Source of the DNA: an uncultured Clostridia bacterium
Lineage (GTDB): Bacteria > Bacillota > Peptococcia > Peptococcales > Peptococcaceae
Length of the DNA: 40,164 nt
Direction of reading: 5' to 3'
Assembly (NCBI GenBank): GCA_944391625.1
Contig: CALXUG010000026.1
Span: forward strand, 1 to 40,164
Below, piece by piece: positions 7,196 to 14,699 of this stretch. A program made the position numbers and the translations under genes. The notes under the pieces were generated by a model that was not told the origin of the DNA, searched no databases, and saw nothing but the letters and a program-made list of their open reading frames with translations. How positions within the stretch are numbered: position 1 is the first letter of the stretch; each line of letters opens with the position of its first letter.

Positions 7196-7333
7196 AAGCC
7201 GCCTTGTTCTACGAAATTTTTCCTGCGTTCATAAGCCGCCTTGCACTGCGAAAAATTTCCTGCGTCCATAAGCCGCCTTGTTCTACGAAATTTTTCCTGC
7301 CCCCATAAGCCGTTTGGCGCCGCAAAATTTTTT
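7196..7333. repeat. 37-bp tandem repeat, three units plus a partial fourth
   Basis: Units at 7196-7232, 7233-7269 and 7270-7306 are exactly 37 bp each and begin AAGCCGCCTTG; a degenerate fourth starts at 7307 with AAGCCGTTTGG. Units 1 and 3 are nearly identical; unit 2 differs mainly by a swapped CACTG for TTCTA and a shifted A/T run. A fragment like the unit end (TTTTCCTGCGTTC) appears again near 12818-12833. There are no spacers, so this is not a CRISPR. No coding role is seen. Confidence 0.85.
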
Positions 7334-7452
7334 TCTATACTGGTGAATTAGGGTGAATCATCGGGTAAGCACGCTTGTTGTGTTTGCTGTATATTCCCAA
7401 TGAGAATGGGCAAAATGCAACAGGGACCGGGATACAGAAATGCTATATAGAA

Positions 7453-7600
7453 CAGCTTCTGCTATCCTTTGCCAAAATTCCGACTTGAAACGAACTGTTT
7501 TATTGTTTGTCCAAATCGTGACAGACGTAGTCTGGCTAAGATGGACAAATCATAAAACTGTACGAGGCACGGAGGGAGAGGCAAAGGATAGCAGAAGCGT
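7453..7600. repeat. Long imperfect inverted repeat in the leader of the Ppx/GppA gene
   Basis: The outer arm is an 18-bp perfect match (CTTCTGCTATCCTTTGCC at 7456-7473, complement at 7580-7597). Further in, GTTTTAT..TTTGTCCA pairs with TGGACAAATCATAAAAC, and the tip is CAGAC-GTA-GTCTG. The 20-nt and 8-nt segments between arms do not pair and look like internal loops. The right arm ends 14 nt before the AAGGAGG ribosome site of the downstream gene, so the fold could influence its expression. Confidence 0.8.
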
Positions 7601-7629
7601 TGATAAGTGTTAATAAGGAGGCACACATC

Positions 7630-8511
7630 ATGCACAAAGCAGTGATTGATATGGGTACTAACAGTACCCGGCTGGCAGTGGGTTCTTTACAGGATGGAAC
7701 CTTAAAAATGGAGTTTACGCAAGTGCTGGAAACCCGCTTGGGAGAAGGCATGGGTACAGAGCGCATCATTAAGCCGGAGCCGCTGCAGCGCAATGTGGAT
7801 GCTGTGCGGCAGTTTGTGCAGCAGGCAGAGGCTATGGGTGTAGAGTCGCTGCGCATTACTGCTACCAGCGCAGTGCGGGATGCGGCCAACAAGCAGCAGG
7901 TGCAGCAAGCCATTGAAGCAGCAGCGGGGATGGAACTGGAGATATTGCCCGGTGAAACCGAGGCGCGGCTGAGCTATCTTGGCGCCAGCGGTGACTTTCT
8001 GAATCTGCACCGTCCGCTGGCAGTGCTGGATATTGGCGGCGGCAGCACCGAGCTGGTCTATCCGGTGCAGGGCGGCATTCATGGAGCCAGTGTCAATGTG
8101 GGAGCGGTGCGGCTGCTGGAACATCCAGAACTGCGGCCGGAGGTATTTTCTATTCTGCAGGGATTGCAGGCGGACAAGCTGCCGGAGCATTGCGCGCTGA
8201 TTGCCGTTGGCGGCACCAATACCTGCCTGATGGCTATGGAACTGGGACTGACCAGCTATGACGGCAGCAAAATCCATGGGCAGGTACTGCCGCGGCAGCG
8301 GGTAGATGTTTGGTGCCAGCGGCTGTTGAATATGACCCAGGCCCAGCGGGAGCAAATACCGGGCATGAAAGCAAAACGGGCTGATATTATGCCTTACGGT
8401 GTACTGATTTTGCAGCAGGCGATGGAACTGTTGCAGATGCCGGAAGTCATCATCAGCGATAAAGGTTTGGTGTATGGCTTACTGTTAGAGGCCTTTGGCG
8501 GAGGCATTTAG
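7630..8511 (+). CDS. Ppx/GppA family phosphatase (exopolyphosphatase-like)
   Basis: A 293-aa member of the ASKHA-fold exopolyphosphatase/guanosine pentaphosphatase family, cytoplasmic. Seen: first phosphate motif DMGTNSTRL (residues 7-15), the TSAVRDA region, second phosphate motif LDIGGGSTELV, and GGTNTC in the third nucleotide-binding area. It is the short version, with only the N-terminal two-lobed domain and no HD domain, as in many clostridia and Negativicutes. It would shorten polyphosphate or hydrolyse pppGpp; which cannot be told from sequence. The start at ATG 7630 is set by AAGGAGG 8 nt upstream. A long hairpin occupies the leader. Confidence 0.9.
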   Translation: MHKAVIDMGTNSTRLAVGSLQDGTLKMEFTQVLETRLGEGMGTERIIKPEPLQRNVDAVRQFVQQAEAMGVESLRITATSAVRDAANKQQVQQAIEAAAGMELEILPGETEARLSYLGASGDFLNLHRPLAVLDIGGGSTELVYPVQGGIHGASVNVGAVRLLEHPELRPEVFSILQGLQADKLPEHCALIAVGGTNTCLMAMELGLTSYDGSKIHGQVLPRQRVDVWCQRLLNMTQAQREQIPGMKAKRADIMPYGVLILQQAMELLQMPEVIISDKGLVYGLLLEAFGGGI

Positions 8512-12621: not shown

Positions 12622-12651
12622 CCGAGAGATCTTTATAATCAATATTTCAGG

Positions 12652-12799
12652 CGGGAACGATTACCCTTTGTTATGTCCACACGCTGCTCTGGACAGAGGC
12701 TCATACGTTTTTGTCGCGTTGGACTTTGTCCGGCTCCATAAAACGTATTTCACCTCAATCCATCCAGAGGTGGACATTTAACAAAGATAATCTTCCCTC
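12652..12799. repeat. Dispersed palindromic element, copy A
   Basis: Nested inverted repeats: outer GGGAA.GATTA..TTTGTT against AACAAAG.TAATC.TCCC, then TGTCCA/TGGACA, CTCTGG/CCAGAG, ATACGTTTT/AAAACGTAT and a tip GGAC-TTT-GTCC. The central 100 bp is clearly homologous to copy B at 14333-14472, while the outer arms differ in sequence but remain self-complementary. It lies in the 399-nt gap between the feo genes and spoIIE. There is no open frame of note and no target duplication. Confidence 0.85.
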
Positions 12800-12855
12800 T
12801 GGTTACCGTTGGATGAAAATTTTCCTGCGTTCTCGAAAAAAATAAAAAACATATC

Positions 12856-12906
12856 ACGTTGTAATATCTTTGCATGATTGGCAGAGACTATTGCAACGTT
12901 TTTTTA
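12856..12906 (+). terminator. Intrinsic terminator of the feo operon
   Basis: ACGTTGTAAT (12856-12865) pairs with ATTGCAACGT (12890-12899) with one G-U pair, followed by eight T. It is placed after repeat copy A, so the copy would be part of the feo transcript. Confidence 0.8.
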
Positions 12907-13020
12907 TGCGTTAAAAGATAACGCAAGAAAATTTTTCACCAATGCCCCAATCCGACAATTTTTACAGAGGAAATGATGTATTATGGTAATAACTGGATAT
13001 TGTGGGATGGAGGAGTCGGC

Positions 13021-14154
13021 GTGAGAAAGACGGAGATGACGAGATTAGTAGAACTGGGCAATAGTTTTATCCAACTGGGAAATGCGCTGCAGCAGATGGA
13101 AGTACAGCCGCCGCGGCAGCAAACTGATATTATACAGGATATTTACAATAAAGTATATCAGCAGGTATGCCGGTTTTGTCCCAAAGAAAGCTGGTGCTGG
13201 CAGGAGGAAAGCGGCTATACTTTGGAGGAACTGAGCAATGCCTGCAATGTGTTGGAGGAGTTTGGCCTGCAAAAGCAGCCTGCCTTTTCCACCAAGTTTC
13301 AGGGACGCTGCAGCCGCACCGGCCAGCTGGAAATTGCGCTGTCCAACCAGATGGAATATTACAAGCAGCAGCAGAGCCAGCAAACGCAGCTGGAAGAAAG
13401 CAAAGCCAATATTGCCAATCAGCTGGTATTGCTGGGAGAACAAATACAGTTGATGCGCACAGGCAATGGCAGCTACGAGCAGACCCAGCGGCTGCTGGTG
13501 GGCCATGCTTCCAGCAAAAAGGAGCAGGTATCGGGCGATAGCTGGGGCGTGCAGGATTTGGGCGACGGCCGCATGGTGCAAATTTTGTGCGACGGTATGG
13601 GCAGCGGTGAGCTGGCCATGCAGCAGAGCAAGCTGGCAGTGCATTTGCTGCAGACTCTGTTGTCCGGCGGCTTGAGTATGCGGCTGTGTTTGAATATGAT
13701 TAATACCATTATGTCCTTTCAATACGGCGGTGTGCGGTTCAGCACTATGGATATTGCTCTGTGGAACTTACACAGCGGCAAAATTGAATTGTATAAATAC
13801 GGCGCAGCTCCATCGTTTGTCAAAAATGGCCGTAAGGTGGTTTCCTATGATGGCAGTTCGCTGCCGGTGGGGATTTTGCCGCGGGTGGAATGCTCTTTGT
13901 TGGAGCATACCATTGCTGAAGGGGATTTGCTGATTACCATGAGCGATGGGCTGTATGAATTGAGTGCCGATGGATTTCAGTGGGAGCAGATTATCAGTTG
14001 TCTGCCCACCACCAATCCGCAGCTGGCTGCCGAATATCTGCTGGCCATTGCCACCAGCCGCATCCGCGCCAATCAGAAGAAAACCAGCGAGCAGGCAGCG
14101 GGCGTTATACAGCATGCCGATGATATGACTGTGGTGGTGAGCCGATTGTTTTGA
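13021..14154 (+). CDS. SpoIIE-type PP2C phosphatase without the membrane domain
   Basis: A 377-aa protein corresponding to the central and C-terminal parts of SpoIIE. Seen: the Cys motif CRFCPKESWCW (C50, C53, C59, W60) and a later CSRT typical of the SpoIIE central region, a coiled-coil segment (about 110-145), then a complete PP2C domain with DSW (D173), DGMGSG (191-196), FSTMD, SDGL (308-311) and DDMTVVV (D367, D368). Bacillus SpoIIE (about 820 aa) starts with some ten membrane helices; here none exist in frame upstream. Start GTG 13021 follows GGAGGAG by 5-6 nt. In Bacillus SpoIIE dephosphorylates SpoIIAA to activate sigma-F. A soluble form would need another way to reach the septum, or may serve another anti-sigma switch. 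Confidence 0.85.
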   Translation: MRKTEMTRLVELGNSFIQLGNALQQMEVQPPRQQTDIIQDIYNKVYQQVCRFCPKESWCWQEESGYTLEELSNACNVLEEFGLQKQPAFSTKFQGRCSRTGQLEIALSNQMEYYKQQQSQQTQLEESKANIANQLVLLGEQIQLMRTGNGSYEQTQRLLVGHASSKKEQVSGDSWGVQDLGDGRMVQILCDGMGSGELAMQQSKLAVHLLQTLLSGGLSMRLCLNMINTIMSFQYGGVRFSTMDIALWNLHSGKIELYKYGAAPSFVKNGRKVVSYDGSSLPVGILPRVECSLLEHTIAEGDLLITMSDGLYELSADGFQWEQIISCLPTTNPQLAAEYLLAIATSRIRANQKKTSEQAAGVIQHADDMTVVVSRLF

Positions 14155-14188
14155 GTATAAGCGGCAGTAAAAATATAACGGCAATGCA

Positions 14189-14236
14189 GAGAGCAGATGC
14201 CAAGGCGGGGTGCCTGTCTTGGGGCTGCTCTTTTTT
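14189..14236 (+). terminator. Intrinsic terminator after the SpoIIE-like gene
   Basis: AGAGCAG pairs with CTGCTCT and an inner CCAAG with CTTGG, followed by six T at 14231-14236. Confidence 0.8.
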
Positions 14237-14332
14237 GTGCGGTAAATTTTTGGCTGCTGATACAGTAGATAGCGTAATGTTTTTGCAGAAAATTGGGATA
14301 AATAAATCTGGCTGCGTGTAAAGCAGCACATC

Positions 14333-14472
14333 GGGCAATATCTGTTGCAGCGTTCACACGCTGCTCTGGACAGTAGCCGCACGTATTTTTGTCGCTTTGG
14401 ACTGCGTCCAGCTCCATAAAATACGCTTGCCACAGTCCATCCAGAGGTGGACTTTCTGCAAAGAAATTGCCC
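14333..14472. repeat. Dispersed palindromic element, copy B
   Basis: Same architecture as copy A: outer GGGCAAT..TTGCAG against CTGCAA..ATTGCCC, then CTCTGGA/TCCAGAG, CGTATTTT/AAAATACG and tip TGGAC-TGC-GTCCA. Compared with copy A, the four inner pairs TACG/CGTA are replaced by CGTA/TACG, so both sides changed together. It sits between the spoIIE-like gene and the D5 helicase gene. Confidence 0.85.
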
Positions 14473-14699
14473 TCTTTTTGTGTGATTCATGCAGCGGCAA
14501 TATGTATACAATCGTTATCAGGTGTGTTATAGTGGATAGATAGGAAAGTGTTGCCTGAGAACGTGGGTAAAATGATAACGCTGAAAATAAGCAATATGGA
14601 AGTATAAGCATAAAAATGACAAAAGCAGAAATAAACTAACAGAAACGGAATGGTAGGGATGTTAAAAGCAGGGTAAGGCGCAGAGGAGCGTGGATAACA
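14473..14699. other. Non-coding upstream region of the D5-type gene
   Basis: No gene is seen. The stretch holds an 8-bp inverted pair CGTTATCA (14513-14520) and TGATAACG (14573-14580) 52 nt apart, and a weak promoter candidate TTGTGT (14478) - 17 bp - TATGTA (14501). Together with the terminator and repeat copy B it makes up the 545-nt gap. Confidence 0.4.

Follow-up and report, generated by a model that had tools for sequence, protein, structure and literature searches.

The window, that is, the whole 40,164-nt stretch of DNA from an uncultured Clostridia bacterium that was analysed here, holds three long imperfect hairpins (Table 1). Two palindromes that an initial annotation had placed at 12652-12799 (copy A) and 14333-14472 (copy B) are present at those coordinates. 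Its two structural observations were likewise confirmed on the window sequence: the four-pair swap, by which TACG...CGTA in copy A is CGTA...TACG in copy B, and outer arms that are unrelated in sequence between the copies and pair within each of them (GGGAACGATTACCCTTTGTTAT with ATTTAACAAAGATAATCTTCCC in copy A, GGGCAATATCTGTTGCAG with CTGCAAAGAAATTGCCC in copy B). The MFE of copy A is -60.4 kcal/mol on the plus strand and -70.5 kcal/mol on the minus strand, and that of copy B -56.5 and -65.8 kcal/mol, respectively; fold z-scores range from -4.6 to -10.0 and 0 of 200 shuffles fold equally well. The minus strand, here termed the E strand, is thus the better folder in both copies.

Copy A has diverged and is an outlier; neither terminal inverted repeats (TIRs) nor the class-1 spacer described below were found in its flanks. 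Copy B is canonical and lies within a MITE whose right end has decayed. The third hairpin (MFE -74.0 including 12-nt flanks) stops just 5' of the likely start or likely ribosome-binding site of an open reading frame at 7600-8511, the putative product of which, judged by eye, is Ppx/GppA phosphatase-like. Upstream of this hairpin, positions 7196-7332 are occupied by a 37-bp tandem repeat (AAGCCGCCTTG...CCTGCGTTCAT), and a piece related to this repeat adjoins copy A at 12808-12832.

Table 1. Hairpins and associated features in the window and at other loci.
Feature	Position	Strand	Covariance-model score (bits)
Copy A, diverged member of class 1 with type I apical module	12649..12801	-	126.2
Copy A, 84-nt apical core (conserved module, model R2)	12687..12770	-	
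Copy B, canonical member of class 1 with type I apical module	14326..14478	-	170.4
Left TIR GATAGCGTAATGTTTTTGCAGAA, degraded, of the ISLre2-type MITE carrying copy B	14268..14290	+	
Third hairpin, own class, type II apical module, 19-nt outer arms	7451..7603	+	56.1
Third hairpin, apical core	7483..7567	+	74.7
parS examples	L005:1940-2070; L010:1411; L198 (C27:20001-39311)		
Retron-like reverse transcriptase, no hairpin of the family nearby	L172 (C32:12826-13383)		

All three hairpins are members of a superfamily of single unbranched imperfect hairpins of ~150 nt (unit length about 150-170 nt), with ~100 dispersed copies in the source genome. BLAST against the same genome returned 55 partial DNA matches, which on extraction resolved into 43 left-arm places plus orphan right arms; full-length sequences for alignment were taken from 38 of the 43. 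The extracted copies come in two forms that share basal arms and carry an apical part of either type I (GAGCTGGACGNAGTCCANNGCGA) or type II (CGTGGCAGACGNAGTCTGNCTAAG). At least four sequence classes can be distinguished, between which apical modules are swappable. Many canonical copies have an upstream spacer of ~45 nt in common, and the class-1 spacer contains a TATAAT-like box. Tandem copies recur with a period of about 194 bp, as in a three-hairpin class-1 array (L159, C46:643-1183; period 194 bp). Because several contigs end inside copies, the assembly undercounts the hairpins.

A covariance model built from the 38 copies gave 124 matches in the source genome, with window positions 7451-7603 among them; a few are the opposite strand of one palindrome. 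The same model detected matches in all 7 congeners, where DNA BLAST had missed them, and 0 matches in five other genera of the family. A second model (R2), limited to the 84-nt apical core, found copies in all 8 genomes of the genus, at least 98 in the source genome and 12, 13, 10, 26, 49, 28 and 7 in its congeners, but had no match in any of 38 further genomes from the class; an exact-motif scan of genome contigs likewise found none in other genera. The superfamily is therefore restricted to one genus of gut bacteria (8/8 vs 0/38 genomes). It is previously undescribed; our literature search returned nothing matching it. The initial annotation had proposed a structured repeat family of this genome; the family is indeed structured, but it is genus-wide with species-specific expansions rather than genome-specific. 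With 55 DNA matches, 124 covariance-model matches and a third copy in the window, chance does not account for the palindromes.

The 71 extracted copies were reduced to 33 representatives less than 80% identical, nearly all of which fold as a single unbranched stem and have their internal loops in common. Covariation was assessed on 30 representatives (<80% identical) aligned by sequence only, with 21 consensus pairs. Across 628 cells 93.6% were paired, compared with 31.6-41.8% after sliding partners by 1-3 columns; double-sided cells numbered 148 vs 48 in shuffles, and the covariation score was 0.590 vs 0.224 when shuffled. Double-sided changes occurred in 17 of the 21 consensus pairs, some without broken cells (e.g. 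GC17/AU13 and CG18/UA12). Outer arms are too divergent for alignment between classes, yet they are paired inside each copy, and close copies show extra compensatory pairs at the hairpin base. Conservation resides in the asymmetric internal loops and in the apical loop, and not in the arm sequences; 47 of 71 copies, and 29 of 38, have C-GNA-G as the apical loop, its N position being free to vary. The arms thus evolve freely yet stay complementary, and across the genome- and genus-wide copy set covariation is overwhelming. The aligned copies also amount to a natural collection of dozens of variants, with almost all base pairs redrawn and the loops unchanged, that can serve for separating DNA-fold, RNA-fold and template-switch accounts of long palindromes.

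Covariation supports the earlier suggestion that selection acts on the folded form, as RNA or cruciform DNA, and the evidence now leans toward DNA. G.U pairs make up 4.2% of MFE pairs on E and 5.1% on anti-E, and deviations from consensus pairs comprise 8 G.T and 6 A.C of 628 cells; as the two are similar and both rare, G.U tolerance gives no hint that an RNA strand is under selection. Within class 1 alone there is a slight lean of G.T over A.C (12 vs 9 and 8 vs 6 distinct types; 23 vs 12 and 18 vs 7 cells), which makes the argument suggestive, not decisive. C-GNA-G is a classic, very stable mini-hairpin loop of DNA that RNA forms as well. The element is strand-asymmetric, since for 30 of 33 representatives E has the more stable fold with RNA parameters, and for 31 of 33 with DNA parameters. 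In class 1, 31 of 38 copies have E on the G-poor strand (p = 1.2e-4), which would make anti-E the lagging-strand template in place of E; no such bias was seen in the other classes.

If these were structured non-coding RNA genes or 5'/3' UTR elements selected as RNA, the strong covariation, the greater stability of E, the TATAAT-like box and the position of the copy at 7451 just upstream of an open reading frame would all be accounted for. We nevertheless consider this rather improbable: G.U pairs are few and about as frequent on one strand as on the other, orientation to neighbouring genes is inconsistent (by crude open reading frame calls), by eye there is neither a conserved -35 box nor a terminator, few neighbours are shared between species, and the copies form tandem and inverted arrays. 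Nor did Rfam at relaxed E-values match any family, except one unrelated FMN riboswitch. An RNA with strict Watson-Crick helices could still be accommodated. Another source of paired changes is the DNA itself, for arm-templated conversion occurs in this family, which qualifies the attribution of such changes to selection on the fold. One copy (C3:41951) has its left arm duplicated as a perfect 25-bp inverted repeat, another (C39:15168) has its right arm duplicated perfectly, inverted, over 17 bp, and in a third (C13:27882) the outer right end was rewritten and now matches the left. The simplest reading of the fold-back derivatives is DNA strand switching at the hairpin, which can yield paired changes without selection. 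On this basis the palindromes could be selfish DNA whose arms are kept matched by templated correction and whose fold has no selected function, and the symmetry of G.T and A.C deviations would agree. It appears unlikely, though not negligibly so, because such correction should erase asymmetric internal loops and distinct loop sequences, both of which are conserved across classes less than 80% identical; strand switching leaves this conservation unexplained, and the superior folding of E over anti-E also speaks against the selfish-DNA reading.

Some canonical class-1 copies sit inside an element of ~300-400 bp with the ends GATRGTGTAAA...TTTACACYATC. One complete MITE (C32:33992-34289) is flanked by the 9-bp target duplication AAAAATTTA, and an IS on contig C39 has the same ends, a 9-bp duplication (GTTGCCTTT) and two open reading frames, apparently frameshifted, matching UPF0236 (ISLre2-type transposase). 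A transposase with matching termini, as the initial annotation had suggested looking for, hence exists for a class-1 subset, not for the whole family. The TIRs shared with the UPF0236 IS and the 9-bp duplications are what an ordinary ISLre2-type MITE family with an accidentally palindromic interior would show. Such a family is a very improbable account of the whole, as both TIRs occur only on some class-1 copies while many others have none, no such TIRs were seen adjoining singletons or copies of classes 2 and 3, and the hairpins are present in congeners. The MITE reading is limited to the class-1 subset, and ISLre2 mobility explains only part of the spread because many copies are without such ends.

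We favor, at roughly even odds (about 0.5), a genus-specific superfamily of non-autonomous mobile hairpins that are recognised as a folded strand, probably of DNA. The working form would be a single strand in its folded state, DNA more probably than RNA, of which a protein may read the loops rather than the helix sequence, much as with integron attC sites, and copying of the hairpin would proceed through the same folded form. Some class-1 copies may in addition have been captured by an ISLre2-type IS and then spread as ordinary MITEs, and arm-templated repair could help the arms stay matched. Mobility of the hairpin itself is inferred. Hairpin families and positions are species-specific across the genus, and when 29 congener loci were compared with the available source-genome loci, very few had a flanking gene in common, which by a rough estimate is about chance. 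Two genes that adjoin each other in the source genome have a hairpin between them in one congener (G002); this fits insertion in the congener or, alternatively, loss by deletion in the source species. Counting against the favored reading, we identified no recombinase for the hairpins, target duplications are defined only for copies with TIRs, and the strand bias of class 1 would put anti-E, instead of E, in the position of lagging-strand template, with no bias in the other classes.

Several other candidates were considered and set aside. The window locus offered no orthologous empty site for comparison, as gene order differs in congeners. Scans of viral contigs gave no real match to a phage or viral carrier; the three contigs that matched (L177, L218 and L219) did so inside phage genes, without a hairpin. 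A retron origin was rejected, since the single retron-like reverse transcriptase in the genome has no hairpin near it and is not genus-wide.

Known palindromic interspersed repeats and MITEs include ERIC, Correia/NEMIS, RUP, the Rickettsia palindromic elements and bcr1 of B. cereus. Like these, the hairpins are short, non-coding, dispersed, taxon-restricted, imperfect palindromes that are mostly intergenic (PMC2229807, PMC10969869). Unlike these, their arms turn over almost completely between classes with pairing kept, and they have swappable apical modules and form back-to-back composites with parS. REP/REPIN elements with RAYT are also hairpin repeats that occur in inverted pairs (PMC3733652), but at 20-40 nt the REP unit is far shorter, and this system was rejected as the Y1 transposase (PF01797) has 0 matches in the source genome and is present in only 1 of 7 congeners. 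Integron attC sites offer a variable-sequence imperfect hairpin (PMC6393395), and it is by analogy with them that we propose folded-strand recognition; the present hairpins are instead dispersed, not in cassette arrays, and have no fixed core site (R'/R''), with outer arms unconserved between classes. ISLre2-family MITEs share the TIRs and the 9-bp duplication with some class-1 copies, whereas most of the superfamily is without such TIRs.

Class-2 and class-3 hairpins are found back to back, 6-7 nt apart. At the junction (e.g. L151:856-863) we observed TTG(YRYRYR)ATAAGG, variable but alternating in purine and pyrimidine. An exact ParB site (parS, TGTTTCACGTGAAACA) terminates the class-3 units, its distance from the hairpin being almost constant; within 110 bp and with at most 2 mismatches, parS accompanies 35 of 54 class-3 3' arms. 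The source genome has 69 exact parS, or 72 allowing one mismatch, of which about 11 cluster around parA-parB on contig C27; the others are scattered and mostly attached to class-3 hairpins. In other genera of the family the number of parS is 0-2. The 106-bp class-3 parS unit has dozens of matches in the source genome, while congener matches to it are confined to parS and its immediate flanks. Class-3 units thereby put dozens of exact parS off the chromosomal parAB locus, and such dispersed sites would make ParB/SMC loading at scattered positions testable in a natural genome. A broader proposal, which we hold only tentatively and regard as doubtful, is that of a new type of mobile element in which folded single-stranded DNA is recognised via its loops and GNA apical loop, with arbitrary helices, and of which the composite spreads functional ParB-binding centromere sites over a bacterial chromosome. 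Finally, three class-2 hairpins (L149, L154 and L158, on contigs C8, C15 and C6) have in common an insertion of ~27 nt at the same place, which carries a small hairpin of its own (CCCGACGCTTTTCTGGTCGGG).
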